Shown here in pieces: positions 14,041-50,689 of a stretch of DNA of 50,689 bases (its first letter is position 1; each line of letters starts with the position of its first letter). The DNA comes from a virus. The stretch is taken from the IMG/VR virus record IMGVR_UViG_3300033146_000748, positions 1-50,689 of that record. One strand, 5' to 3'. The position numbers and the translations under genes are program-made. The notes under the pieces were generated by a model. It was not told the origin of the DNA, did not search any database, and was given only the letters and a program-made list of their open reading frames with translations.

Positions 14041-16262
14041 TATGATATCCCTATTGTAGAAAATCCATCTTCTTTTGTAACTCTATATATTGAATCTCCA
14101 CCAAAATCCACAACTTCTTCACGGTGGGATACAACAAATACTTTCAAATTATCTTCTCGTTGTTTCATTTTAATAATATCAAATGTTTTCTCAATACCAA
14201 AACTGTCAATACTACTATCCAACAATTCATCTAATACCAAAACATCTATATAAGAACCTGCTTGTCGTCTCGCCACATCCATCATGGCAAACTTTAATGA
14301 CAAATCAATACTCTTACCTTCTCCACCTGACATATTACCAAAATCACAGTCTCCAACACCATAACCATTGATTGTACCATCTAACCAAGCATCCAATTCA
14401 ATATAATAATTATGACCTGTTTCACTCAAATAATGATTGGTTTGTTGTTGAAGATATGGAATAATATTACTAATGGCATATTGTTTAACATTTTCATCCT
14501 TCAATGTCATTTTAATATACTCAAGATAATCCTTCATTGATTGAAGTTTCTTAATATCTCCATCACTACTAGATAATTCAGATTCCAATTGACTTTTAGA
14601 TGCAACATTTGTTTGATATTCCAAAGTCACACGGTCATATATTTCCTTTTGACTATTATAAATTGATTGTTCTGTTTCAACTTTTTGTGTAAGTAATTGA
14701 ATATTATGTATAATTTCATCATAATCTTTCAATTCAGAACTTTTAACTGAATGTTCCACCTCCAATTCAGAAAATGTCTTAAAAAGTTTTCCCATTTCGT
14801 CATCAAGACCTGATATTTTCATTTCCAAATTAAGAACTTCTGTTCCTATCAAAGATAGTCGTTCATTAATATCTTCCAACTCTTTTTCTTTCTCTTCAAT
14901 ACCAGATAATTTAATAAGATGTTGTTCTAATTGTTGTTGTTTTGATTTCTTTTCTTTATATTCAACAATTTTTAATGAAACCTTCCCCATCCTTACATTA
15001 CATTCATCTAATATTTTTGAATTTTCAGATTTATCAGATAATAGATTACTAATTTTATCATTTAATTCTTCTATTTTTTCTTCAACATGAGATTTAATGT
15101 GTTCAATATCAACCTCTTGAAAACAAGTCGGACAAATTGTAGAATCAGTAGATGTATAATTCTCCCATTTACTTAATTCACTTCTCAATCTAGTCAATTC
15201 AGAATCAATTACTTTATTCTTACCTGATACCTCAATCTTTTCCTCATTCATTGCATCATAATCAGCTTGTTCATCTTCAATGAATTCATCCCAATCAGGC
15301 ATATTTTCAAGAACTTCTTTAATTTTATTATACTTTTCTCGTTGATCGGTCAAATCACCAATTGCTTTAACCCTCTGTTCCAGAGTATTCTTTTCACCTT
15401 GTAATGAACTTATCTGTGATTTAACATCAGCAACCTCATCTTTCAACTCACTAATTTCATTAAGTATTTCTTGTTTTCTATTATTCAGATCATCAATTTC
15501 ATCTTGAATACTTTTTTTCTTGTTCTCATCAACAGGATGATCTTTGAGATAATCATCCAATTCTGATTGAACTTGAATAACAGATTTTTCATAACTATCA
15601 ATATCAGGCATAGTCATACCATTTATGATAACATCCAACTCTTCAATTCGTTTTTGTTTGTATCCAATTTCCATTTCAATTGAAGAAATCTTTTCTTGTA
15701 AACTCAACAATTTAGAATTAACCAAATCATTTACTTTAGAATAAATCTCAAGATTAAAAAACTTCTCAATAAACCTTCTCTTATCTGCTTTGGGAGTATT
15801 AAACATTGAAATCATATTATTGGCATTTTGAAACAATAATGTTTGTGCTGCCTTAAAATCCATACCAATTAAATCATTTTCCAACTCCATCTGAAATACT
15901 CTTTTATCAGATAATTTTGGAACTAATACACCATCTTTAGTTAATTCTAATTTCCCAGGTTTAATCCCACGATGAAGAATATAAGGAATACCATCTTTCT
16001 CAAAATGTAGTCTTACCTCACATTGTTTACCGTTTTTCCAATTAATAATTTTTGGAAGTGCCACACCCTTACTGGTCTGACCAAATAAAGCAAAAGGAAT
16101 TGCTTCAAGAAAACTTGTTTTACCAGCACCATTTGACCTATCCATATCTTTATCATGACCCAAAACAATATTTACCCCTTCTTTAAGGTCAATTGTCTGC
16201 CATGTATTTCCATATGAAAAAAAGTTCTTTAATTCTACTTGGTTAACAACTATCTTACTCAT
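14040..16262 (-). CDS. 46: gp46 recombination nuclease ATPase subunit (SbcC/Rad50-like)
   Basis: ATPase half of the gp46/gp47 complex that resects DNA ends to feed UvsX. Walker A RSNGAGKTS at residues 42-50, a long coiled coil from about 180 to 600 with a Zn hook CPTC at 377-380, ABC signature MSGGEGKS near 655 and Walker B VLVLDELLDSS near 690. At 740 residues it is longer than T4 gp46 (about 560) because of the coiled coil. The partner gene 47 lies 1.4 kb upstream, separated by a release-factor-like gene and three small genes. Confidence 0.93.
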   Translation of the reverse strand: MSKIVVNQVELKNFFSYGNTWQTIDLKEGVNIVLGHDKDMDRSNGAGKTSFLEAIPFALFGQTSKGVALPKIINWKNGKQCEVRLHFEKDGIPYILHRGIKPGKLELTKDGVLVPKLSDKRVFQMELENDLIGMDFKAAQTLLFQNANNMISMFNTPKADKRRFIEKFFNLEIYSKVNDLVNSKLLSLQEKISSIEMEIGYKQKRIEELDVIINGMTMPDIDSYEKSVIQVQSELDDYLKDHPVDENKKKSIQDEIDDLNNRKQEILNEISELKDEVADVKSQISSLQGEKNTLEQRVKAIGDLTDQREKYNKIKEVLENMPDWDEFIEDEQADYDAMNEEKIEVSGKNKVIDSELTRLRSELSKWENYTSTDSTICPTCFQEVDIEHIKSHVEEKIEELNDKISNLLSDKSENSKILDECNVRMGKVSLKIVEYKEKKSKQQQLEQHLIKLSGIEEKEKELEDINERLSLIGTEVLNLEMKISGLDDEMGKLFKTFSELEVEHSVKSSELKDYDEIIHNIQLLTQKVETEQSIYNSQKEIYDRVTLEYQTNVASKSQLESELSSSDGDIKKLQSMKDYLEYIKMTLKDENVKQYAISNIIPYLQQQTNHYLSETGHNYYIELDAWLDGTINGYGVGDCDFGNMSGGEGKSIDLSLKFAMMDVARRQAGSYIDVLVLDELLDSSIDSFGIEKTFDIIKMKQREDNLKVFVVSHREEVVDFGGDSIYRVTKEDGFSTIGIS

Positions 16263-16626
16263 TTTCCACCTCTTTAATATCTACCCACTTTCCATCAACT
16301 TTTACTTCAACTTTAATATAATCCTCATTCATCATCTCATCCACTTTTTGTTCAATGGTTTTTTTGGTGATAATCTCTTTGCTCCTTGCATTCAACCAAG
16401 AAACAAAAGTGGGAGAATTAGCAAGTCTACGGAATGCAGTAATTTTATTTTGATGTTGGGATTTTCCATCACGAGATTCAGCCCAAAGACCACTCTCATT
16501 ATGTTTAATACGAACACCAGAATCAGTTTTATTTTGATGTTGTCCACCTTTACCACCACTCTTAAACGTTGTAATAGTAAAATCTTTTTTTGTTAATGAC
16601 AATAAATGTTCTCGTTCTTTCACCAT
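16255..16626 (-). CDS. GGQ-motif release-factor-like protein
   Basis: The 123-residue product contains KSGGKGGQHQNKTDSGVRI, with GGQ at residues 27-29, the peptidyl-tRNA hydrolysis motif of class I release factors. The codon-recognition domains of RF1/RF2 are absent and there is no obvious long ArfB-type tail beyond about 100 residues, though the C-terminus is charged (EVKVDGKWVDIKEVENE). It could rescue stalled ribosomes or release peptides. Start ATG 16626 overlaps the stop of the preceding small gene; the stop overlaps the start of gene 46. Confidence 0.8.
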   Translation of the reverse strand: MVKEREHLLSLTKKDFTITTFKSGGKGGQHQNKTDSGVRIKHNESGLWAESRDGKSQHQNKITAFRRLANSPTFVSWLNARSKEIITKKTIEQKVDEMMNEDYIKVEVKVDGKWVDIKEVENE

Positions 16627-18747: not shown

Positions 18748-19590
18748 TTATCCGAAAATTGATTCAATTCCTTGTTGTAAACTAATCTTTGGTTTCCAAT
18801 TTAAATCATTATATGCTTTGTTATTATCAGGAAGACGGTGATATGGTTCACCTTTTCTCCCTTCAATGTGTTTTACTTTTAAATTTGGATGATATTTTTT
18901 AACCATGTCAACAAGATCGTTAATTTTTGTTTGGATATTAACACCTAAATTATATACTTCATGTTGAATATCATCAAGACAAGACATTAAAAATAACCCA
19001 TGAACCAAATCATCTATATGAGTAAATGATCTGGTTTGATTTCCATCACCACATATCTCAAAGGTATCATCTTCTTGGACACATCGTTTTAACATAGGAA
19101 TTATTTTAGTATCATTAATATTAAAATTACCTCCATACACATTAAAAAATCTTGCAATTACCCAATCAACCTCTATTTCATTATAAAGAATATTTTCTGA
19201 TAACATTTTAGACAAAGAATAACAATTACGACTATATTTTGGATTAACAATGAGATCTTGTCCTTCAACCAACGAACCAGTATTATAACCATATACCTCT
19301 GATGTTGAAGCATAAACTAATCTACATTTATTATTCAAATTATTATTCTTAATATAATCAATTACACTTAATATACCATTTATATTACTAGAAATTATAT
19401 CTCTATATTTATTTTCAAACTCTAATGGACGAGATTCAGATGCCAAATGATATATTACATCAAATTTTATATCATCATATATAGAACTTATATCAGATAC
19501 ATCACCTTGATTGAATATAAATCTTTCTGATTGTATATTATTATAAGATTCAATTGTATTAAAAGATAATGAATTTGATAAATTATCCAA
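18748..19590 (-). CDS. NAD-epimerase/dehydratase lacking the N-terminal GxxGxxG
   Basis: An extended short-chain dehydrogenase of the UDP-glucose 4-epimerase/UDP-glucuronate decarboxylase type: VDVIYHLAS-type motif, STSEVYG, catalytic YSLSK (Tyr-x3-Lys), NVYGGN, FTHIDDLVHG and a C-terminal RKGEPYHRLPD. The first visible segment, ...VFVLDNLS, matches the end of beta2 in the family, so about 25-30 residues with the NAD-binding GxxGxxG loop are missing. The only in-frame start is TTG at 19590, and upstream codons do not restore the motif. It is either truncated or non-functional. Confidence 0.8.
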   Translation of the reverse strand: MDNLSNSLSFNTIESYNNIQSERFIFNQGDVSDISSIYDDIKFDVIYHLASESRPLEFENKYRDIISSNINGILSVIDYIKNNNLNNKCRLVYASTSEVYGYNTGSLVEGQDLIVNPKYSRNCYSLSKMLSENILYNEIEVDWVIARFFNVYGGNFNINDTKIIPMLKRCVQEDDTFEICGDGNQTRSFTHIDDLVHGLFLMSCLDDIQHEVYNLGVNIQTKINDLVDMVKKYHPNLKVKHIEGRKGEPYHRLPDNNKAYNDLNWKPKISLQQGIESIFG

Positions 19591-19612: not shown

Positions 19613-20218
19613 TCATAATGATAATGAATCCATGAAATTACTTAAATCAACACCTGTTTCAATAACAAATAATTCTTTTATTTCTTCATTATCATATGAA
19701 TCCATAATTGAATATTTAAAATTATTAAATTTTGTCATATAATAATTATATTCCGATATAACATCAAGATTCATTAAATATTCATCTAAAATATTAATAA
19801 GTTTTTCATCTTCAGTATTAATTATTTCAAGATATATATCTTCTCTATTTTCATCGGTAATAAAAAATCCTTTAGATGATAAAATATTATTCAATCTTAC
19901 ATAATTTATAAATACAATATAAAATTCAGAATCAAATATTCTATCTATAAAATATTTTTTATATGAAACCATAACATTATTTTTAAAATTATCCAAAGAA
20001 TCAATAGGAACTAACTTGAATTTATCAATTGATATATAACCAATATTTTTTGGATATATCATCTGATACCGTTTAATATTATCTTTTACATAATTATATA
20101 CAATTTCACCAACTTTAACATATTTATCTTCATCAACACTAAAATCATCTTCTTTTTCACCATATCCAGTTATTTTAAATTCATATTTGGATATATCACA
20201 TTTTTTCAACAAAAACAT
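19613..20218 (-). CDS. 201-residue protein, unknown
   Basis: ATG 20218 is preferred; GGAGG lies 11 bases upstream and overlaps an earlier in-frame ATG at 20236. The protein is rich in Ile, Tyr, Asn and Lys, with alternating beta and helical segments (EFKITGYGEKEDDFSVDEDKY...), and no recognisable motif. Its end lies where the N-terminus of the epimerase would be expected, suggesting a deletion junction. It follows the Cys-rich gene. Confidence 0.65.
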   Translation of the reverse strand: MFLLKKCDISKYEFKITGYGEKEDDFSVDEDKYVKVGEIVYNYVKDNIKRYQMIYPKNIGYISIDKFKLVPIDSLDNFKNNVMVSYKKYFIDRIFDSEFYIVFINYVRLNNILSSKGFFITDENREDIYLEIINTEDEKLINILDEYLMNLDVISEYNYYMTKFNNFKYSIMDSYDNEEIKELFVIETGVDLSNFMDSLSL

Positions 20219-20266
20219 ATAAAACACTACCTCCATATAACAATTTATTAAACATATATATTATTT

Positions 20267-20923
20267 CTAAAAGTAAATAATATTAACTTTAAGTCTCATG
20301 TCAGAATAATTACAATCACATGTACATGAATAATTACAATTACAAGTACAATAATTACAATCACAAGTACAATAATTACAATCACAAGTACATGAATAAT
20401 TACAATGACAAGTACATGAATAATTACAATCACAAGCACATGTAGTTGCAACATCTGATTTTAATTGATCCTTCATTGCCTCCACAGTTTCATGAGTAAT
20501 TAATTCTTCAGGTGCAATTTCATTATCAGAATATGGGGATTGAACTGTACCAGAAATAACATCTATAAATAAATCTCTGATTGTTCTTATTTCAGATGTA
20601 TCAACTACACCATGTAAAACATCTATTGGTGCCCCAGCAATATTTCTTCTATCTGCTTCAACATTCAACTCATGTTGTAGTTCATCTAACTCATATTCCA
20701 AATCTATAACTTCACCAGCAATAACATCAACATTTGTATATGTTATAGTTCTTGGTCCAACATATCCCGCATGTGAAGAACATGAATTATTATGATTAAG
20801 ACAACCATTGGTTGCATTATGACTATGACATCCTGTAGTATTTGAATTTCCTTGACAACCTACTGTTGTATTATTAGAATGACACCCTACATTTCCATTA
20901 TGCCCATTACAACTACAACCCAT
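20267..20923 (-). CDS. Cys-rich repeat protein with S74-type tail
   Basis: 218 residues with about 25 cysteines in two blocks. The N-terminal block (1-50) has GC(H/Q/L)xxN repeats; residues about 60-155 are a helical middle with ordinary composition; the C-terminal block has six units of the form NY(S)CTC(D/H/N)C. The last residues, SDMRLKVNI, match the start of the S74 intramolecular chaperone of phage fibres, which normally runs another 100 residues. GGAGG precedes the ATG. It is downstream of a radical SAM gene in the same operon, so it is a candidate substrate, metal-binding protein or virion appendage. Confidence 0.75.
   Translation of the reverse strand: MGCSCNGHNGNVGCHSNNTTVGCQGNSNTTGCHSHNATNGCLNHNNSCSSHAGYVGPRTITYTNVDVIAGEVIDLEYELDELQHELNVEADRRNIAGAPIDVLHGVVDTSEIRTIRDLFIDVISGTVQSPYSDNEIAPEELITHETVEAMKDQLKSDVATTCACDCNYSCTCHCNYSCTCDCNYCTCDCNYCTCNCNYSCTCDCNYSDMRLKVNIIYF
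20305..20442 (-). repeat. tandem coding repeat of about 21-24 bp
   Basis: Six units of the AATAATTACAATCACAAGTACATG kind, differing by 3-bp indels, encode the NY(S)CTCDC repeats at the end of the Cys-rich protein. Indels keep the frame. Confidence 0.85.
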
Positions 20924-20932
20924 ACTTCCTCC

Positions 20933-21799
20933 TTAAAATTGACCAAATTCACATTCGGTAAATTTTTCTTTTGTTAAAATCCCTTTTGTTGGACTAAGAT
21001 AACGATTACCATCGAATGTAGACTTATCACATTCTAAACATCCATATTCTTGTCCTTCTCCACAAGCTAAACCACAAATAGGACGATGATATATTTTATA
21101 TAATTCTCTCATAATTGATTTATAATCTTTTTTTAATTTAAAACCAACACCATCTCCTAAATATTGATCAAGACGTTCAAAAGCAAAACTAAATGAAATT
21201 TTAATACAAGTGGGATACTTTTCAAAAATTAAAATAGCTTCTTCAACTAATTTATCCCAATTTTTTTCAGACACAGTATATGATATTCTAAATGGTCTTT
21301 TATCATGTGTCAATTTATCTATCACACTTTCAACTATCTCTTTAGAACTTGAACCATCTGGAAATGGACGTAAATCTTGTCCAATACCATCATAACTAAT
21401 TTCCAATTCCAATCTAAATCCCTTTTCATCAGACTCATCAAATAATTTTAATAATTTATCATAAAAAGATTGATTATTTAATAATACACCATTAGTTGTA
21501 AAAGTAGCATAATATTTTTTGTCTAACTTTTTAGAAGAATTTAACAAAGATTCAATTAAATATTCCAATTCAGTTATAGCTAAAGTAGGTTCTCCACCCA
21601 TGATGACAATTGTAGTTGATTTAATCTCCCCTTCTGTTGTTTCTAATTCTTCAATAAAATCATCAATCTGTTTTTTAGTAACTTCATAATGTTGGAAATC
21701 AGGTTGATTTCTTTTATTTGATTCATAACAATATTCACATTCCAAATTACATCTAGTAGTCAAATATATTATATTTGTCTTTTGGGTTTTATCACTCAT
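20933..21799 (-). CDS. radical SAM enzyme with C-terminal Cys cluster
   Basis: ATG 21799 (MSDKTQKTNIIYLTTRC) is chosen; earlier in-frame codons lie at or before the promoter start site. The CxxxCxxC for the SAM-cleaving 4Fe-4S cluster is at residues 17, 21 and 24, followed by MGGEPTL. The C-terminal 45 residues carry at least five cysteines (CGLACGEGQEYGCLEC...TECEF), fitting a SPASM or twitch auxiliary cluster as found in peptide-modifying maturases. The next gene downstream encodes the Cys-rich repeat protein, a plausible substrate. Confidence 0.88.
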   Translation of the reverse strand: MSDKTQKTNIIYLTTRCNLECEYCYESNKRNQPDFQHYEVTKKQIDDFIEELETTEGEIKSTTIVIMGGEPTLAITELEYLIESLLNSSKKLDKKYYATFTTNGVLLNNQSFYDKLLKLFDESDEKGFRLELEISYDGIGQDLRPFPDGSSSKEIVESVIDKLTHDKRPFRISYTVSEKNWDKLVEEAILIFEKYPTCIKISFSFAFERLDQYLGDGVGFKLKKDYKSIMRELYKIYHRPICGLACGEGQEYGCLECDKSTFDGNRYLSPTKGILTKEKFTECEFGQF

Positions 21800-21834
21800 T
21801 TTAATATCCACATTTTTTTTATTTTTTATCATAT

Positions 21835-21863
21835 AAAATAACACATTAACAAATAAATGTCAA
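21835..21863 (-). promoter_or_regulatory. sigma70-type promoter of the radical SAM/Cys-rich pair
   Basis: TTGACA (21863-21858), 17-nt spacer, TATTTT (21840-21835). The -10 is weaker than elsewhere in the window. Confidence 0.55.
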
Positions 21864-21864
21864 T

Positions 21865-24800
21865 TTAATATGAACCACCATCAATATCAATCTCACCAGT
21901 TGCAAGATCAATGATATGTCCGAATGAATCAAATGAAAGTGATGTAATATGATCACCATCATCAATAACAAATGGACTTGCCCCTACATTACCACTTAAT
22001 ATATCCTTGTTATAATGAGTAATATCAATTTTATCATCACGAGGATTAATAAATGTTAAACTAATATTAGAATCATCAGCATCACCAGATGTTGTTCCAT
22101 GACCACTCCATACAAATCCATCATTTTGAGGAAGAGTGTTATCATATATATATTCATGACTAGTATAACCAAAACCTTCATCAATGATACTAACATCAAC
22201 AATAGAACCAACAATATAAGGTACTAGTATAGCTCCTGTACCAGTAGAATTAATAGAAACTGATGATATAGTATAATATTTTGATGCTATAGCTGATTTA
22301 CTTACTGCTGTAATTCCACCTGAACCGTCAATCGCCGATACAACCCAAATTGTACCACGTCCATCTCCATATATTGATATCGTATCATTTACAGAATAAC
22401 CAGAACCACCATTCTGAATTTCAATATAATCTATATCACCTAAAACCTTAGATATCCTTAAATCAACGGTAGTATTACCAGAATCATTAATATCAAATGA
22501 TGTTTCTGTTATAGTAGTAGAAGTACCTGCAGAATCAAAAACAGGAAAGTTTGTTGTTGTTCCTGTTCCTCTACTTTGAGGATAAGCTGGGTCAGATATA
22601 TCAATATTAATAAATCCAGAACCACCATTATCAATATCAAATAAAGAAATTTCATTTGGATAAATATATACTGATTTTAATATAATACCACTATCAGAAC
22701 CATCATTAATAATATTTCCAGAAGGAGATGTATATGTTAAACCATTTTCAGTAAAAGATTCATTTAAAAACCTAATTGAACTATCATCTTCTGATACCAA
22801 TACCAAACCTAAATATTCATCAACATAATCTTTATTTACTAATTCATTTCCACGTCCTGATTTGAATATATAATGAGGATAAATTGGATTATATTGTTGA
22901 TTACCATCTAACGAAACACTACCATCCGATAAAATAACATTACTAGTAGAAAAACTATCATCAAAATAAGCCTTTGTAATTAAATGATTTGGAGCTGTTG
23001 GATATATATAACCATCAACAACACTAGGATAATTGATCGTATTATCTAATGGACGAGAACAATCAAGATTCATATATTGTAAATGGTCATCTGAATCTAA
23101 ATCATACAAATCAGAATGAGAAGCACCAACCGTAACTTCTCTTAATATTAATGTACCACCAGTACCACCTGGAACTGTAACACTTTCACCTTTAACATAT
23201 CCAGTACCAGAAGAAGAAACTGAAACACCTGTTAATGATCCTGCTGAAACAGAGTTAATATTAATAGTTAAAGAAATACCAGAACCATCTAATATTGAAA
23301 TATTATTTCCAACAGAATAACCAGAACCTGCATTTTGGATTTCAACTTCCAAAACTTTTCCAATTGGGATAGTATTTGATGATTGTAATAAATTACATAA
23401 TCTTGCATCAATATATCCATATGTAACCAAATTTTCAGGGTTTTGTTCAATGGTAGATGTTAAATATAATAACCTATCAGATTTAGGATAATCTTTTCTT
23501 ACAATATTAGAAACATATATTACTCCATTGACATCTGTAAATGTATCAGAAGATGATATATTAGTATAAACATTTTCAATAATATCATCAATTTCAGCAC
23601 GAGAAGTTAGATTACCGCCAACTACAGAGGTGTGAATATTTGTTGTTATTCTACCAGCTGTATAATCATCCCCATCATTTCTCAAATATTGAGGATGAGG
23701 GTCAATTTGAGATTGATGTTCACTTATTTTTGTAGTAACAAATAATGTAGACGATAAACTTTGACTAGAAGATGAATCTAATATAGCATATGTAACAGAA
23801 GAATCATAACTTAACACATCTGTTGCAGTTAATGTACCATCCCTTAATAAATAATCACCACCACTTCCAAGTCCTAATGAAGCAATTTCTATATCTACAT
23901 AATGTTTAGTAGAAAGATGTTGGTCTAATACTGGATCAACCCCTGAAATAGTTCCTGTAAAACCTATACCAGCCCTATCTCCTGTACCTAAAATATATTG
24001 AGTATGATCATCATCACCCAATCCACTAATATTACCATGATCTATTAAAGAACCATCATTCAAAACATCATTCAAATACAAAACCGTAACCAAATCAACA
24101 TCAAAATTTGGATATACAGAATTATCATGAACTCTTGGAATTTGAGTATATCTATTAGTATTATCATTAAGTAAACTTACATTAGTTATTGGTTGACCAT
24201 TAAAATATTCAGCATTAAGATCATTAACTAATATTTGATTACCATTAACTGTAAAAGGAGCACCTGTTAATTCATTAAATGATACATTTTTATTAAATAT
24301 TGTATCATTATTTATTGTAATTGTTGTTTGTTGTATATCTATAGATACATTATCAAGTGATGTTATAGTTGCTATAGCAGAACCAATAAAATTATCAAAT
24401 GTAACTTGATCATATATTGTATAATCATTTCCACCATTATTAACATTAATAGATGAAATTGAACCAGAAGATACAACAATATCAACAGTTAATCCTGTTC
24501 CTGTACCACCAGAAGTTGGTTCATTTAAATATGTACCATTTGTAAACCCTGAACCAGAATCATCTAAACTAATACCAATTACAGAACCAAATTGACTATA
24601 ACCTAATTTTAATCCTGTATCATTACCTACAATAACATTTGTAATAACACCTTTAGTTGGATCTACTTCAAGGTTTTCAATAAAATATCTTGGAGAAATT
24701 AGAATCCAACGTCCTGATGCACCAACATCTGTTGGGGCTATTATTGTTGGATAAACTGGTGTATCAGATGAAATATTATCATATCTATAAAAGTTTATAG

Positions 24801-24927
24801 CATTTAATGTATCATCTTTAACAACAGCAAGATCATTATTCTTTAATAAACTTGCACTTATATTATCTAAAGAACCAGAAGCACCACCTGTCTGGTATAT
24901 TGCTCCAAATATTCTATTAACAGCCAT
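21865..24927 (-). CDS. large fibre/appendage protein with GGxGY beta-modules
   Basis: 1020 residues, rich in Ser, Gly, Asp and Thr, with an N-terminus (MAVNRIFGAIYQTGGASGSL) resembling other virion-attachment regions. Repeats such as NAGSGYSVGNNISI, NGGSGYSVNDTISI and DEGFGYTSHEYI occur near residues 125-190, 535-600 and 830-930; related modules are inserted in the tail sheath. Fibre-type linkers (DDHTQYILGTGDRAG, LDQHLSTKHYVD, DLDSDDHLQYMNL) lie between. GGAGGAA precedes the ATG. It is likely a long or neck fibre; receptor binding is inferred. Confidence 0.75.
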   Translation of the reverse strand: MAVNRIFGAIYQTGGASGSLDNISASLLKNNDLAVVKDDTLNAINFYRYDNISSDTPVYPTIIAPTDVGASGRWILISPRYFIENLEVDPTKGVITNVIVGNDTGLKLGYSQFGSVIGISLDDSGSGFTNGTYLNEPTSGGTGTGLTVDIVVSSGSISSINVNNGGNDYTIYDQVTFDNFIGSAIATITSLDNVSIDIQQTTITINNDTIFNKNVSFNELTGAPFTVNGNQILVNDLNAEYFNGQPITNVSLLNDNTNRYTQIPRVHDNSVYPNFDVDLVTVLYLNDVLNDGSLIDHGNISGLGDDDHTQYILGTGDRAGIGFTGTISGVDPVLDQHLSTKHYVDIEIASLGLGSGGDYLLRDGTLTATDVLSYDSSVTYAILDSSSSQSLSSTLFVTTKISEHQSQIDPHPQYLRNDGDDYTAGRITTNIHTSVVGGNLTSRAEIDDIIENVYTNISSSDTFTDVNGVIYVSNIVRKDYPKSDRLLYLTSTIEQNPENLVTYGYIDARLCNLLQSSNTIPIGKVLEVEIQNAGSGYSVGNNISILDGSGISLTININSVSAGSLTGVSVSSSGTGYVKGESVTVPGGTGGTLILREVTVGASHSDLYDLDSDDHLQYMNLDCSRPLDNTINYPSVVDGYIYPTAPNHLITKAYFDDSFSTSNVILSDGSVSLDGNQQYNPIYPHYIFKSGRGNELVNKDYVDEYLGLVLVSEDDSSIRFLNESFTENGLTYTSPSGNIINDGSDSGIILKSVYIYPNEISLFDIDNGGSGFINIDISDPAYPQSRGTGTTTNFPVFDSAGTSTTITETSFDINDSGNTTVDLRISKVLGDIDYIEIQNGGSGYSVNDTISIYGDGRGTIWVVSAIDGSGGITAVSKSAIASKYYTISSVSINSTGTGAILVPYIVGSIVDVSIIDEGFGYTSHEYIYDNTLPQNDGFVWSGHGTTSGDADDSNISLTFINPRDDKIDITHYNKDILSGNVGASPFVIDDGDHITSLSFDSFGHIIDLATGEIDIDGGSY

Positions 24928-46044: not shown

Positions 46045-46866
46045 TTATATTAATAAACTACAATACTGTGGATTAGATAATCTAAACAATCTACGATTAA
46101 TCAATAATCCAAGATTATATTCAGTACAATCAAAATAAATTCTATTTGAAAAATTATGGTAGGCACAATGAATAATAACTTTATCGTCTAAATCTATGAC
46201 AGGCATCCAAGGATACATAGAACACATTTTCTGTTTTAATTTATTATATTTTTGGAGTTGATTTATACAATGATTAGCATAAGAAGTTTTTATATGAGAA
46301 AATAATTTTATTATATCATTTTTGTGATTATTGATGGATTCACGTTCTACATACATTTTCAACCAAAAATTATTCTCATTAAATATGCCAATATAATCAA
46401 AATAATCATAATTATTTAATAAGGATTTTGTTGTAACCTCATCCAAAACAATTATGTTTTTTGAATTGATACTATTCATAAAATCCATATTATAAAATTT
46501 TATAATACTTTTCCCATCAATCTTATATACCAAATGTTCATTATATACATCAACCAAATCAATAATAGTTGGATGATTATATCTCAATAATCCATTAGAC
46601 ATTAATTGAATTTTCTTTACAGATTTATATGACTTTAATAGTAATATAAAATCATCTATATTAGATATCAACCCTATTTCACCACCCGATAATTCTACAA
46701 ATAAATTATTTGAATACATACTTAATGTTTTTATACACCACTCAAAATAATCAAGATCAACTTCAAATTTATTATTATAATTCTTATTTGATTTATTAAG
46801 ATCACAATAATAACAATTTTTGTTACACTTTTTCGTTAATAAAAATTGTACATAAAATAACTTCAT
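46045..46866 (-). CDS. radical SAM enzyme 4 of the operon
   Basis: 273 residues; CxxxCxxC is at residues 14, 18 and 21 (TKKCNKNCYYCD), then ELSGGEIGL (SAM-contacting GGE). The middle is divergent from the classical barrel. The C-terminal third has cysteines (KMCSMYPW, HCAYHNF, FDCTEY, PQYCSLLI) suggesting an auxiliary Fe-S site. Its ATG overlaps the stop of the upstream +1-frame ORF (ATGA), so that frame is evidently translated. Confidence 0.85.
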   Translation of the reverse strand: MKLFYVQFLLTKKCNKNCYYCDLNKSNKNYNNKFEVDLDYFEWCIKTLSMYSNNLFVELSGGEIGLISNIDDFILLLKSYKSVKKIQLMSNGLLRYNHPTIIDLVDVYNEHLVYKIDGKSIIKFYNMDFMNSINSKNIIVLDEVTTKSLLNNYDYFDYIGIFNENNFWLKMYVERESINNHKNDIIKLFSHIKTSYANHCINQLQKYNKLKQKMCSMYPWMPVIDLDDKVIIHCAYHNFSNRIYFDCTEYNLGLLINRRLFRLSNPQYCSLLI

Positions 46867-47039
46867 ATAACACCTGTAATTGGATCTGATATATAATTAA
46901 AAATGCTACATCTTTTTTGACACCTTATTATATTTTTATAATTATCTCTAACATATTTATTATACTCATTATTATAAGCAGATTCAAATGTGACATCATT
47001 GTTATTCAAATTAATTAAATCTTTATTCTTAATACTCAT
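46863..47039 (-). CDS. SPASM C-terminal half in +1 frame (or separate small gene), copy 1
   Basis: 58 codons beginning MSIKNKDLIN; the sequence FESAYNNEYNKYVRDNYKNIIRCQKRC fits the C-terminal end of a SPASM domain (an FxxAY...EY segment and closing CxxxC). It is in the +1 frame relative to the radical SAM gene whose stop codon it overlaps. Its own stop overlaps the next gene's ATG. No ribosome-binding site stands before the ATG, so a +1 shift during translation is one possibility. Confidence 0.6.
   Translation of the reverse strand: MSIKNKDLINLNNNDVTFESAYNNEYNKYVRDNYKNIIRCQKRCSIFNYISDPITGVI
46920..47033 (-). repeat. perfect 114-bp direct repeat, copy 1
   Basis: Identical to 47876-47989. It contains the stop codon of the upstream radical SAM gene and most of the +1-frame SPASM-like segment. 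Confidence 0.95.
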
Positions 47040-47808
47040 ATTTGTCAGTATATTTACCGACCACAGGTAAAGTATCAATCAAATCAACTGAATGAATAAC
47101 AAGATTACAACATTGATGTAATTCTCCATTATCAAATATATACAACCACCGTCCATTAAACCACGGACATTTTTTTGGTGGACTTTTAATGTATTTTGAT
47201 GTTTTATACAAAAAATCTAATGTTCCATTTTTATATTTACAATCGGATGGGGAACTCAAAATACCTTGTTCATATACCATTGAATATTGTCTTAAATAAT
47301 TTTTAACACCCAAATGATAAAAAAACTGTTCCATATTTTGATTTTCATTAAATTTAAATAATATTGTTTTTACTGTTGCATATCCTCCAGCGTCAATAAA
47401 TGTTTTAAGATTATTCAAAACAGTATTCGTATTGACACCCCTATAAGGATTTACATCATTATCAATGTCATCAATGGAAAATTGAACATAATATTTTTCA
47501 GAATTACATATACTAGCCAATTCAACCCAATATTCCTTATCACGAATACCAGCATTAGTTTCCACATTAAAATTAACATTATGATGTTTTGAAATTAATA
47601 AAAATTCAAGTCCATTTTTATGATTTATAAAGTCACCATAACTACCACAAAATTCAATATGTTTTGTATATGGATATATTTTTTTAAATGTATTTAAAGA
47701 CATATCTTTATTGATATCACCAAATCCATTAAACGTATGTCTATTACAATATTTACATTTTGCATTACATTTGGAAGTTATACCCAAATTAATATTATTA
47801 AATTTCAT
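47029..47808 (-). CDS. radical SAM enzyme 3, SPASM half out of frame
   Basis: 259 residues in frame. CxxxCxxC at residues 14, 18 and 21 (TSKCNAKCKYC), FCGSYGDF in place of GGE, VETNAGIRD, YVQFSIDDID and ATVKTIL. The C-terminus has KKCPWFNGRW and NGELHQCCNL, the first SPASM cysteines; the reading then stops at TAA just inside the 114-bp repeat. The remaining SPASM cysteines are in the +1 frame (46863-47039). The start overlaps the preceding +1-frame ORF by 11 bp. Confidence 0.85.
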   Translation of the reverse strand: MKFNNINLGITSKCNAKCKYCNRHTFNGFGDINKDMSLNTFKKIYPYTKHIEFCGSYGDFINHKNGLEFLLISKHHNVNFNVETNAGIRDKEYWVELASICNSEKYYVQFSIDDIDNDVNPYRGVNTNTVLNNLKTFIDAGGYATVKTILFKFNENQNMEQFFYHLGVKNYLRQYSMVYEQGILSSPSDCKYKNGTLDFLYKTSKYIKSPPKKCPWFNGRWLYIFDNGELHQCCNLVIHSVDLIDTLPVVGKYTDKYEY

Positions 47809-48007
47809 TTAATATAATCTCTTTTTGAGGACCAAGAATATTTTTTAAAGTAATTGAAGTAGAACAAGACATTCTACACCTTATTATATTTTTATAATTA
47901 TCTCTAACATATTTATTATACTCATTATTATAAGCAGATTCAAATGTGACATCATTGTTATTCAAATTAATTAAATCTTTATTCTTAATCAGTGGAAATT
48001 GATACAT
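47798..48007 (-). CDS. SPASM C-terminal half in +1 frame (or separate small gene), copy 2
   Basis: 69 codons from ATG 48007 (MYQFPLIKNKDLIN...). The first 44 residues share an identical stretch with copy 1, ending IIRC, then diverge (RMSCSTSITLKN...). It overlaps the upstream radical SAM gene and ends 11 bp inside the next gene's start. A weak GAG precedes the ATG. Confidence 0.6.
   Translation of the reverse strand: MYQFPLIKNKDLINLNNNDVTFESAYNNEYNKYVRDNYKNIIRCRMSCSTSITLKNILGPQKEIILNEI
47876..47989 (-). repeat. perfect 114-bp direct repeat, copy 2
   Basis: Identical to 46920-47033 while the flanking radical SAM genes are clearly diverged. Separation of start points is 956 bp. Confidence 0.95.
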
Positions 48008-48761
48008 CTCTAAATGGTTCATTATATCTAAATTGGGAAGATAACATTGCAAGATTACAACATTGATGTAATTCTCCAAATTCATCAATCATCATTTTTT
48101 TATCATTAGACCAGTGACACATTTTTGTTGATCTAGTAAGATTTTTATTTGTATAAATCAAACTAACTATACCATTTGTCAATTTAGAAGACGAAGGACA
48201 AGAAAAATCACCTTCTGGTTTATATTGAAATGCATCATGTGATTTAAATACAATAACACCTATATCACGAAAATAATCAATCATCTCATCAATAGAATCT
48301 TCATTAAATTTCCAATTAATAGTCTTTACTGCAGCATATCCACCAGAATCAATAAATATTTTAAGATTGTCCAATACATTAGAAGTTCTAACTTTACGAT
48401 AAATATCATATTCATGTTTAATATCATCAATAGAAAATTGAACATAACCATTAGGATTTTTAGATGAAAGTTTTCCAAAAGTTTTCCAATATATTTTATC
48501 TCTAATACCAGCATTAGTTTCTATTATAAATTTTTTATTATGTATATTTAATGTTTCTACCAATTCCAATCCATTAGGTATAGTAACAAAATCACCCCAT
48601 AAACCAATAAATTCAATTCTATCAAAATAATCAATAAATTTTAACAGTGTAGTATTTTTTAAATAAATATTATAAGGAACTTTATTTGTCATATTCCTAA
48701 AACAATCCCAACAACCAGCATTACAATTAGTAGATACCCCAACAGTAACAGAATTCAACAT
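47985..48761 (-). CDS. radical SAM enzyme 2, SPASM half out of frame
   Basis: 258 residues, paralogous to the gene at 47029: CxxxCxxC at residues 13, 17 and 20 (STNCNAGCWDC), FIGLWGDF, IETNAGIRD, YVQFSIDDIK and AAVKTINWKF. The C-terminus has TKMCHWSND and FGELHQCCNL, then stops at TAA within the start of the 114-bp repeat. Start ATG overlaps the upstream B12-type gene by 7 bp. Confidence 0.85.
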   Translation of the reverse strand: MLNSVTVGVSTNCNAGCWDCFRNMTNKVPYNIYLKNTTLLKFIDYFDRIEFIGLWGDFVTIPNGLELVETLNIHNKKFIIETNAGIRDKIYWKTFGKLSSKNPNGYVQFSIDDIKHEYDIYRKVRTSNVLDNLKIFIDSGGYAAVKTINWKFNEDSIDEMIDYFRDIGVIVFKSHDAFQYKPEGDFSCPSSSKLTNGIVSLIYTNKNLTRSTKMCHWSNDKKMMIDEFGELHQCCNLAMLSSQFRYNEPFRDVSISTD

Positions 48762-50134
48762 AATTCAAATCCTTTATTTCTAGCAATATTATTTTTATCT
48801 ATAAGCAACTCCAAATTAGGATCATGATTGTTTTTATATTTAAGAATCAAATTATAGTCTATATTAAAATAATCCTTAAATATAATAGGTTCAACATGTT
48901 TTATGTCATAAATCAATTCATTTTTACTTATATCTTCTGGTACTACATATTGGAACGAATTTAATTTAAAAAACTTATTATTACCAACAATTTTTAATAT
49001 TCTAATCAGATCAATAAAATCTGACATTTCCTCTTGAAAAAAATTATATATAATACCATAACCAACATTATTATATTTTGGATTAATTATTAATTTTAAA
49101 TTCATTTCCCTTGTAGTTGGCTTATTCATCAACTTCAAAATCTTATCTGAAAAATGTTCAACACCTACATAAAATAAACTTCCCGTAAACTTACATAACA
49201 AATCAGAATTATTAAGATATTGTGGTGTTGTTAAATGAACTATATTAAATTTAATTTCATTACCAAAATTATTATATATATTACCAAAAAAATACTGGAT
49301 CTCTTCATCAGTATAAAATGGCAAAGATGAAATACAAAAATTACTATCAATGTTATATTTTTTATTAATAAATCCAATTCTATCTATAACTTCATCAAGA
49401 TGATCATAATTTAATTTAAGATTATTACCTTTATTTTGTGTACAAAATGTACACTTATATGGACACAATGTATGAAAAGAAAAATTATATTGTTTATTTT
49501 TTAACTCAATGTCAGATAATCCAGAATTAAATGAATCCAAAAATTCTTTTTTGTAATATAAACCTTCACTATAACCAGAAGAATCTAATTTATTTTCAAA
49601 AAAATCATCCAAAAAGTTTTCACCATGACCAACAAATACATAATCAGAAAATTCTTCCTTCATAAAAATATATTTTAAATGTGGCTTAAACTCCTTTTCC
49701 TTACCAAAACATATTTTTATTCTACTTCTTTTTTTTATCTCATAAGCAAAGTATAATTGAAAAAATTCAAGATCCTCAAAAGAACGTATAAAAACCCATT
49801 CAGGATTTATATTCACTACCTGTTCTACCATTTTATCTATAATTTTAATCTTATTTTTAAATTTTATCCAATCAACATCATAAGATAAATCACATGAAAC
49901 TTTATTATAATCACATTCAAATGAATTATAACCTGATTTTATAAAAGAATGTACGAAAAATAAAGATAGAGTTGAAATAACTCTATTATTATTTTCATAC
50001 CCAATTAAACATTCCAACAAATCTGAAATATTCAAAAAATCGAAGGGAATTAAATCAACATCATATTTCTTCGTATAATTATAAAAGGATTTATATGCAC
50101 CATTAATAATAGTAGGAGTATAAATTATCTTCAT
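48755..50134 (-). CDS. B12-binding-domain-type radical SAM enzyme
   Basis: 459 residues. The N-terminal 200 residues have a Rossmann-like pattern (IIYTPTIING..., EWVFIRSFEDLEF, YVFVGHGENFLDDFF), as in cobalamin-binding-like radical SAM proteins, but the cobalamin-ligand DxHxxG is not seen. The CxxxCxxC is at residues 224, 228 and 231 (CPYKCTFCTQN). Later YVGVEHFSDKILKLMNK is a family-typical GxEsxsd...lnK stretch. ATG overlaps the upstream stop (ATGA). Possible functions are methyl transfer or ring chemistry. Confidence 0.8.
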   Translation of the reverse strand: MKIIYTPTIINGAYKSFYNYTKKYDVDLIPFDFLNISDLLECLIGYENNNRVISTLSLFFVHSFIKSGYNSFECDYNKVSCDLSYDVDWIKFKNKIKIIDKMVEQVVNINPEWVFIRSFEDLEFFQLYFAYEIKKRSRIKICFGKEKEFKPHLKYIFMKEEFSDYVFVGHGENFLDDFFENKLDSSGYSEGLYYKKEFLDSFNSGLSDIELKNKQYNFSFHTLCPYKCTFCTQNKGNNLKLNYDHLDEVIDRIGFINKKYNIDSNFCISSLPFYTDEEIQYFFGNIYNNFGNEIKFNIVHLTTPQYLNNSDLLCKFTGSLFYVGVEHFSDKILKLMNKPTTREMNLKLIINPKYNNVGYGIIYNFFQEEMSDFIDLIRILKIVGNNKFFKLNSFQYVVPEDISKNELIYDIKHVEPIIFKDYFNIDYNLILKYKNNHDPNLELLIDKNNIARNKGFELC

Positions 50135-50689
50135 TTTTTTGAAAACTCTTTTATTATATTAAATGCTTGTTTAAAGTATTTTTTATGTCTAAAATCATGC
50201 CATAGAAAATTAGCTATACAACCATCACATACTTGATCTGTTAAAGTATCAAATAGTTTCTCGTTTTTGTATAATTTTTTAATATTATCATATGTAAGTG
50301 GTACTGAATCCCCCGTAATTGAAATACAACATCTATTAATTCGTTTATTAGGAAGATCGAATATTGGTTGTGTATATACGTTAGCACAAACTGTACGTTT
50401 ATTGTGTAACCATTTTTCATCATCTATACGTTCAATAATACGTTCGACTCTTTTTACAAAATCGGGTTTAATAATAGGAGAAGCTGCCAACACCTGATGC
50501 ATATACTTAAAATCATTTAATGTTAACAAATCTAAACCAGGTGTTCTTGGTTGTAAAATATGAGGTAACACGTAGGAATCTAAATGTTCGCATTTTTTTA
50601 ATATTTGATCTAAAATTGGTAAATTTCGTTTATTAATAACAAATGTATAATATGTTAATATATCTGTCGGGTATTGAACAATATTAAAA
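50131..50689 (-). CDS. radical SAM/SPASM protein, 5' end outside the window
   Basis: Open to the window edge. The visible C-terminal part (about 185 residues) reads ...YPTDILTYYTFVINKRNLPILDQILKKC..., like the last strands of a radical SAM barrel, then RTVCANVYTQPIFDLPNKRINRCCISITGDSVPL and LTDQVCDGCIAN. The cysteine order C...CC...CxxC is that of a SPASM auxiliary-cluster domain. The CxxxCxxC would lie upstream. A GTG at 50571 is not needed as a start. The stop overlaps the next gene's ATG. Confidence 0.8.
   Translation of the reverse strand, partial: FNIVQYPTDILTYYTFVINKRNLPILDQILKKCEHLDSYVLPHILQPRTPGLDLLTLNDFKYMHQVLAASPIIKPDFVKRVERIIERIDDEKWLHNKRTVCANVYTQPIFDLPNKRINRCCISITGDSVPLTYDNIKKLYKNEKLFDTLTDQVCDGCIANFLWHDFRHKKYFKQAFNIIKEFSKK

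Follow-up and report, generated by a model that had tools for sequence, protein, structure and literature searches.

Large sets of radical S-adenosylmethionine (rSAM) genes have been reported in T4-like phages before. CP220 and CPt10 carry 11 and 12 rSAM genes, respectively, with five per interchangeable module alongside an amidinotransferase (PMC2853527). A T4-like genome from TARA data has 12 rSAM genes (PMC5332604), and rSAM modules also occur in pelagimyophages (PMC7029224). Here, we describe rSAM genes in a 50,689-bp IMG/VR fragment (record IMGVR_UViG_3300033146_000748, hereafter the window), which belongs to a T4-like phage as judged by its tail sheath, gp3, baseplate, and recombination genes. 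A first-pass annotation of the window had singled out five rSAM-type genes at 46045-50689 as its strongest candidate for an undescribed system. Given the reports cited above, clusters of this type are not undescribed. The five genes themselves are genuine, but they are not the full set in the window: a sixth rSAM gene, overlooked by the annotation, lies at 20933-21844, directly beside a gene for a cysteine-repeat protein that resembles a tail fiber. Dozens of divergent viruses show this pairing of an rSAM gene with a Cys-repeat gene. The recurrence suggests that a part of the phage tail is chemically modified, by cross-linking or in another way, by rSAM enzymes of the phage itself. We refer to the module at 18.7-21.8 kb of the window as block A and to the module at 46045-50689 and beyond as block B.

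The block A rSAM gene (20933-21844, on the minus strand, as are all features of both blocks) encodes a maturase-like protein of 303 aa with the best PF04055 match in the window (43 bits, E 5e-13). It also matches the PapB-family ranthipeptide maturase model NF047865 (E 4e-20), at 72 bits versus a cut-off of 340, and is 41% identical to a homolog in a relative (L050 8056-8877). Ten nucleotides (nt) downstream is the gene for the Cys-repeat fiber-like protein (20267-20923, 218 aa; phrog_26958, E 4.9e-18). This protein begins with an N-terminal part that contains Cys and His, followed by a helical domain in the middle, a C-x-C-x-C-N-Y core (approximately 20306-20440) with the repeat unit (C-T-C-[ND]-C-N-Y)n, and the residues SDMRLKVNI, which correspond to the start of an S74 chaperone domain. 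A 24-nt tandem repeat at 20304-20442 underlies the Cys array. The protein ends in SDMRLKVNIIYF, followed by a stop codon, and the remainder of the S74 domain was not found in the window. An S74 domain of this kind would start with SDxRLKxNI after the fiber part, and in relatives the domain occurs in two arrangements. The full S74 domain is fused to the Cys-repeat protein in L081 and L149, while in L152 (9637-9948) and similar loci (cluster c10) the Cys-repeat protein ends in the first residues of the domain and its main part (PF13884) is a separate next gene. The first-pass annotation had considered substrates not evident; yet this protein, accompanied by an rSAM gene of its own, is a strong substrate candidate within the window, 25 kb away from the annotated cluster.

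To survey the pairing, we scanned IMG/VR with a degenerate pattern for the Cys repeat and sorted the matches by translation into those encoded within an open reading frame (ORF) and those occurring by chance (out of frame or short). Apart from the window, 37 records encode the repeat within an ORF, and 19 contain chance matches. PF04055 was detected in 36 of the 37 repeat-encoding records (2 to 16 rSAM genes each) versus none of the 19 chance records, a contrast that is not size-matched, as the chance records are shorter on average. The adjacency of the two genes is independent of record size. In every rSAM-positive record where upstream DNA is present, the nearest upstream rSAM gene lies on the same strand, and the gap to the repeat gene is mostly 3 to 15 nt (10 nt in the window) or, with one small gene between, approximately 370 to 410 nt. 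Larger distances were found for extra tandem copies and at a few divergent loci (L082/L151, L105/L156). In the window, as in relatives, a putative maturase gene thus stands next to the gene for a Cys-rich candidate precursor, the arrangement expected of ranthipeptide/sactipeptide systems, which make ribosomally synthesized and post-translationally modified peptides (RiPPs). The 52 distinct Cys-repeat proteins form 46 leader clusters at 70% identity; therefore, the linkage does not stem from a single clone.

A reverse scan with the block A family of rSAM/SPASM proteins gave a consistent picture, with a repeat gene beside most full-length members. The exceptions without an adjoining repeat gene were contig ends, L179, and Campylobacter phages; L179 keeps the leader but lacks the repeat array, perhaps as a result of collapsed assembly. 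More distant rSAM/SPASM relatives adjoin other Cys-rich repeats (CTCTCT, NCHSNCHS, TCQSCDACQ) with similar leader-like domains. We also observed CxxCxxC-repeat proteins (TCQSCDACQ..CYTGQC) encoded approximately 10 nt before an rSAM/SPASM gene and after a tail-like protein (L231 5446-5793, L232 and L234 5422-5769, and L240 4771-5601), as well as a fiber-like protein (L238 5403-5978) with the end CTCTCTCTCTC, whose gene overlaps an rSAM gene. Among 84,980 cellular genomes, a two-unit pattern returned four real cases, all on contigs of metagenome-assembled genomes (L163-L166); these are probably viral contigs and were used as support only. Human-fecal "phage" records with a related rSAM gene were not counted, because their SecD-like neighbor and SCIFF-like peptide look cellular. 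Cellular-looking DNA around an rSAM peptide maturase was seen in L244 and L245 (MT836133 and MT836452), both human-fecal "Bacteriophage sp." records.

The repeat itself varies in length and copy number. In the 163-kb contig G007 and its kin, the Cys-repeat gene follows three rSAM genes and contains 24 to 25 units, and two otherwise identical copies differ by one 24-nt unit. Tandem Cys-repeat genes stand behind one maturase set in some loci, with four in L148 (7198-9762) and three in L149 (12851-14908), which suggests that they encode variable tips.

The typical order of block A in relatives is rSAM/SPASM, rSAM/SPASM, a small gene, rSAM, a small gene, one or more Cys-repeat genes, the S74 remainder (PF13884) in some loci, and a phrog_25260 gene. 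The two rSAM/SPASM maturases are approximately 370 aa each and the third rSAM protein approximately 290 aa. Block B rSAM genes come after block A in one gene run in all inspected loci with enough downstream DNA. By comparison of gene order, the two blocks of the window are best explained as pieces of a modular locus that is continuous beside the tail genes in relatives. The window retains the conserved partner gene (phrog_25260, 19613-20236), which follows the Cys-repeat gene at most loci, and a nucleotide-sugar epimerase gene (18748-19590) with homologs within the corresponding loci of relatives. The gene immediately upstream of what remains of block A encodes a tail-fiber/baseplate-like protein of 1020 aa (21865-24927, minus strand), with PHROG matches to baseplate wedge and tail fiber families.

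What the block A enzymes might do is indicated by their closest solved relative. The best structural match of the block A maturases is 5wgg (E 7.6e-32, across the rSAM and SPASM regions), which we take to be CteB, and the block A relatives carry SPASM-type Cys sets. The non-Cys positions of the repeat core are T (71%), N/D (89%), and N/D (95%). CteB is a ranthipeptide maturase that forms thioethers in CteA, a Cys-rich SCIFF peptide, and the acceptor residues of ranthipeptides include the same types, Thr, Asn, and Asp (PMC8326336). The link to a fiber comes from the S74 domain, fused or encoded by the next gene, and from the tail genes upstream.

Our best overall explanation, which we hold with moderate confidence, is that rSAM/SPASM enzymes modify Cys-repeat fiber tips in a RiPP-like manner and that block B adds a further, possibly sugar-linked, modification. 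The rSAM enzymes of block A would recognize the conserved N-terminal domain of the fiber protein and act on the (C-T-C-[ND]-C-N-Y)n array at its C-terminus, where the most likely modification is a thioether that joins Cys to the Thr, Asn, or Asp residues in between. The S74 chaperone, split off or fused, would assist fiber trimerization, and the modified array would accordingly be expected to stand at the end of the tail fiber or spike. Gene content, gene order, genetic linkage, and homology are direct observations; in the other parts of this explanation we do not place equal confidence. That the Cys-repeat protein is the substrate is quite probable, and that it forms a fiber tip of the virion is somewhat likely, while for thioether chemistry on the array we see about an even chance.

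The main rival to the thioether reading is a metal-binding tip, in which the Cys array forms a metal-binding or disulfide-rich needle comparable to the HxH iron sites of T4 gp37, and the rSAM genes act elsewhere and are merely co-carried in the host-recognition region. The C-x-C-x-C spacing puts all Cys residues on one face of a strand, which suits a metal at the trimer axis; T4 gp37 binds iron via HxH repeats (PMC11705849), and CxxH motifs are also present in the N-termini of Cys-repeat proteins. However, the repeat is tied to an adjacent rSAM gene in many divergent lineages, with rSAM genes in all but one of the 37 records, and the closest solved relatives of these adjacent enzymes work on Cys-rich peptides. 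We therefore regard a metal needle with unrelated rSAM genes as unlikely. Another alternative, proposed for CP220 (PMC2853527), is that the rSAM genes enhance the metabolism of the infected host. Enzymes of this kind fit anoxic hosts, but no metabolic rSAM family was matched above its cut-off, the genes are placed among tail genes and beside a fiber-like gene, and there are several rSAM genes of one type per cluster; we consider this explanation very improbable. In profile comparison, the window proteins also fell far under the cut-offs of viperin and other named rSAM families.

Several observations weigh against modification of the fiber by the rSAM enzymes. For every named family of RiPP maturases, the scores of the rSAM proteins in the window stay far under the curated cut-off. 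A Pfam search of the maturases and the small accessory proteins revealed no RiPP recognition element (RRE), the domain that binds leaders, although remote RREs could escape such a search. In an AlphaFold model of the Cys-repeat protein, only the three-helix middle domain is confident and the Cys core is predicted to be disordered in the monomer; a fold search with this model returned no match, nor did tblastn of the protein against phage isolates. One repeat-encoding record, G019 (43.8 kb), has no rSAM gene. The two SPASM maturases of block A are not seen in the window, and block B is 25 kb away from the Cys-repeat gene; the rest of block A may lie beyond the contig end. Finally, blocks A and B both have homologs in the complete Campylobacter phage CP220, which has no repeat of this kind, and pelagiphage Mosig carries a block-B-type rSAM gene without the repeat; a strict link to the repeat therefore holds for neither module.

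The five block B genes at 46045-50689 were confirmed as an rSAM operon. The first-pass annotation had placed CxxxCxxC motifs in the four complete genes at residues 14/18/21, 14/18/21, 13/17/20, and 224/228/231, and all positions are as it stated; in a profile search, a check which it had proposed, PF04055 matches all four. The gene that is cut by the contig end (50131-50688, C-terminal part only) has no Pfam match of its own. We count it as rSAM because its product shares 64% identity, over 177 aa, with a complete rSAM protein of 310 aa that has CxxxCxxC (L050 18657-19589). It overlaps by 4 nt the next gene (48755-50134), which encodes a protein of 459 aa with CxxxCxxC at 224/228/231 (PF04055 at 49001-49477, 33.2 bits, E 2.3e-10). 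The N-terminal region of this protein resembles B12-binding rSAM enzymes, with weak NCBIfam matches to B12-binding/rSAM families, and tblastn against phage isolates returned no match. A B12-type rSAM gene is frameshifted in G007 (L050 15402-16712), and a homolog in G008 is intact (435 aa, L052 742-2049). Next are two rSAM cores, at 47985-48761 (CxxxCxxC 13/17/20; PF04055 at 48267-48737, E 1.6e-8; phrog_21308, E 6.5e-9) and at 47029-47808 (CxxxCxxC 14/18/21; PF04055 at 47335-47781, 35.6 bits, E 1.3e-10). The product of the latter is 48% identical to L051 542-1525, and a single-sequence scan of IMG/VR with the 47985 protein found no match. The last gene of block B (46045-46866, 273 aa, CxxxCxxC 14/18/21) has a PF04055 match under the curated cut-off (46582-46839, 22.8 bits, E 1.6e-6), and an intact homolog (L051 1522-2397) shares 43% identity with its product over 272 aa. 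Overall, CxxxCxxC in a PF04055-type domain is present in five proteins of the window, one of them under the cut-off, and the cut gene is assigned via its intact ortholog. A C-terminal Cys set like that of SPASM is visible in block B proteins, partly in a second ORF, with weak PF13186 matches (E 0.1 for the L051 homolog).

The claim that these genes overlap by a few bases is correct for 50131/48755 (4 nt) and 48755/47985 (7 nt), but the 47985 and 47029 ORFs end approximately 160 to 180 nt short of the next gene. Each gap is bridged by a +1-frame ORF with its own ATG. The ORF at 47798-48007 overlaps the next gene by 11 nt and encodes the Fe-S (SPASM-like) C-terminal part of the second copy of the enzyme, matching the C-terminus of intact L051 542-1525; the ORF at 46863-47039 overlaps the next gene by 4 nt and, by comparison with the intact homolog, encodes the Fe-S C-terminal part of the first copy. 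The 47985 and 47029 ORFs terminate where the two copies of a 114-nt perfect direct repeat start (47876-47989 and 46920-47033, respectively), and the SPASM-like C-termini resume in the +1 frame inside the repeat. The two proteins are only 42% identical despite this repeat, for which an exact-DNA search of IMG/VR found no match. A second perfect direct repeat of 29 nt is shared by the same paralogs (47100-47128 and 48050-48078). Perfect repeats of 114 and 29 nt between paralogs this divergent could reflect recent conversion, selection, or an assembly effect.

It is also conceivable that both genes are frameshifted pseudogenes or that the 114-nt repeat is an assembly error. The homologs in G007 are each one intact ORF, and a perfect repeat is odd between genes whose proteins have diverged so far. 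Both +1-frame ORFs, however, are fully open, with an ATG just before the upstream stop codon and an overlap with the next gene, and the isolate Mosig has an rSAM homolog that is similarly split, with an overlapping +1-frame ORF. We consider decay or misassembly rather unlikely. A programmed +1 frameshift is possible for both genes, and a coupled second ORF, for which Mosig provides a parallel, is an equally simple explanation.

The contents of block B in relatives bear on its function. Depending on the phage, it includes further rSAM genes and genes for a GT2 glycosyltransferase, an epimerase, a UDP-sugar dehydrogenase, a thiamine pyrophosphate (TPP) enzyme, a halogenase, a carbamoyltransferase, a DegT aminotransferase, and an amidinotransferase; the latter is StrB1-like (1bwd, E 6e-44) and present in G007. 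To the first-pass annotation the cluster looked like a complete modification pathway, but in relatives the module extends into amidinotransferase, DegT aminotransferase, glycosyltransferase, epimerase, and other genes, past the end of this contig. Compared with the CP220-type module, the window has the five rSAM genes and ends before the part that holds the amidinotransferase in G007. The most likely role of block B is to produce another modification, possibly sugar-based, on the Cys-repeat fiber or on a surface glycan, and its action on the same fiber is a tentative proposal that we rate below an even chance. Alternatively, it could be an auxiliary pathway for an unusual amino- or guanidino-sugar or cyclitol that decorates the host surface or a phage glycan, unrelated to the Cys fiber. 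The set of sugar-pathway enzymes in relatives favors such a pathway, as do the similar modules without a Cys repeat in CP220 and Mosig, but block B continues block A as one gene run in the inspected loci, and no glycan product is known. We put this alternative close to an even chance; given CP220 and Mosig, a sugar pathway that does not involve the fiber is at least as likely for block B.

The cluster appears to be a genuine part of a phage genome. In L007, the nearest relative of the window by gp3 (84% identical), two rSAM/SPASM genes occupy the equivalent position, directly upstream of DUF5661-gp3. G007, which has T4-like tail genes, contains eight PF04055 matches in two neighboring runs and groups orthologs of the 50131-50688 gene, the 47029/47985 family, and 46045. 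This co-location and the gene order in L007 disfavor a host fragment in a misassembled contig, which the first-pass annotation had raised as an objection to its own proposal. The first-pass view is supported in part: a T4-like phage does carry an rSAM operon, some of whose members look SPASM-like or B12-type, and the operon is probably a modification pathway. The GC content of the 46045-50689 cluster (23.5%) is lower than that of the tail genes (30.2%); acquisition of the cluster by the phage is therefore likely. Elsewhere in the window, 16255-16626 encodes a phage homolog of peptide chain release factors with an RF-1 domain.

Reports of rSAM clusters in T4-like phages go back to 2010 but named no substrate, and the conserved Cys-repeat fiber-like protein encoded next to rSAM genes is a concrete, testable candidate. 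We did not find the pairing of a Cys-repeat fiber with rSAM genes in the searchable literature, a scope that leaves out preprints and most subscription journals. It is an evenly balanced question whether many tailed viruses covalently remodel their own tail fiber with dedicated rSAM enzymes, with RiPP-type cross-linked Cys arrays at the tip and alternative cores that share related leaders and maturases, as a class not previously described. If so, radical-chemistry maturation would be added to the ways in which phages build receptor-binding parts, the presence of up to 16 rSAM genes in some phages would be explained, and a large natural set of Cys-repeat cores and cognate maturases would be available for enzymology and peptide engineering.

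Among known systems, the SCIFF/CteB and PapB ranthipeptide systems share with block A an rSAM/SPASM gene whose neighbor encodes a Cys-rich protein, built from an N-terminal domain and a core of repeated Cys residues, Cys together with Thr/Asn/Asp in that core, and 5wgg as the best PDB match of the maturases. They differ in that the candidate substrate here is a tail-fiber-like protein of 125 to 380 aa with an S74 chaperone rather than a short peptide, that there are several rSAM enzymes per substrate, and that an RRE domain was not found and the window protein is far under the family cut-offs. CP220 and CPt10 (Firehammervirus) are likewise T4-like phages with a five-rSAM block and an amidinotransferase (PMC2853527), and they have homologs of the 20933 rSAM protein of the window (29% identity) and of a block A SPASM enzyme (38% identity); the Cys-repeat fiber gene, however, was not found in CP220. 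Pelagimyophages such as Mosig EXVC030M (PMC7029224) have rSAM homologs among tail-fiber genes, with aminotransferase, carbamoyltransferase, and methyltransferase genes and a split rSAM gene, but Mosig lacks the Cys repeat and the enzyme set is not the same. The tip of T4 gp37, with its HxH iron sites, and fibers with S74 (endosialidase) chaperones have in common with the Cys-repeat protein a periodic metal-capable motif at the fiber tip and an S74 domain after the distal part; in the proteins described here, Cys replaces His, and the fiber-like gene is linked to rSAM enzymes.

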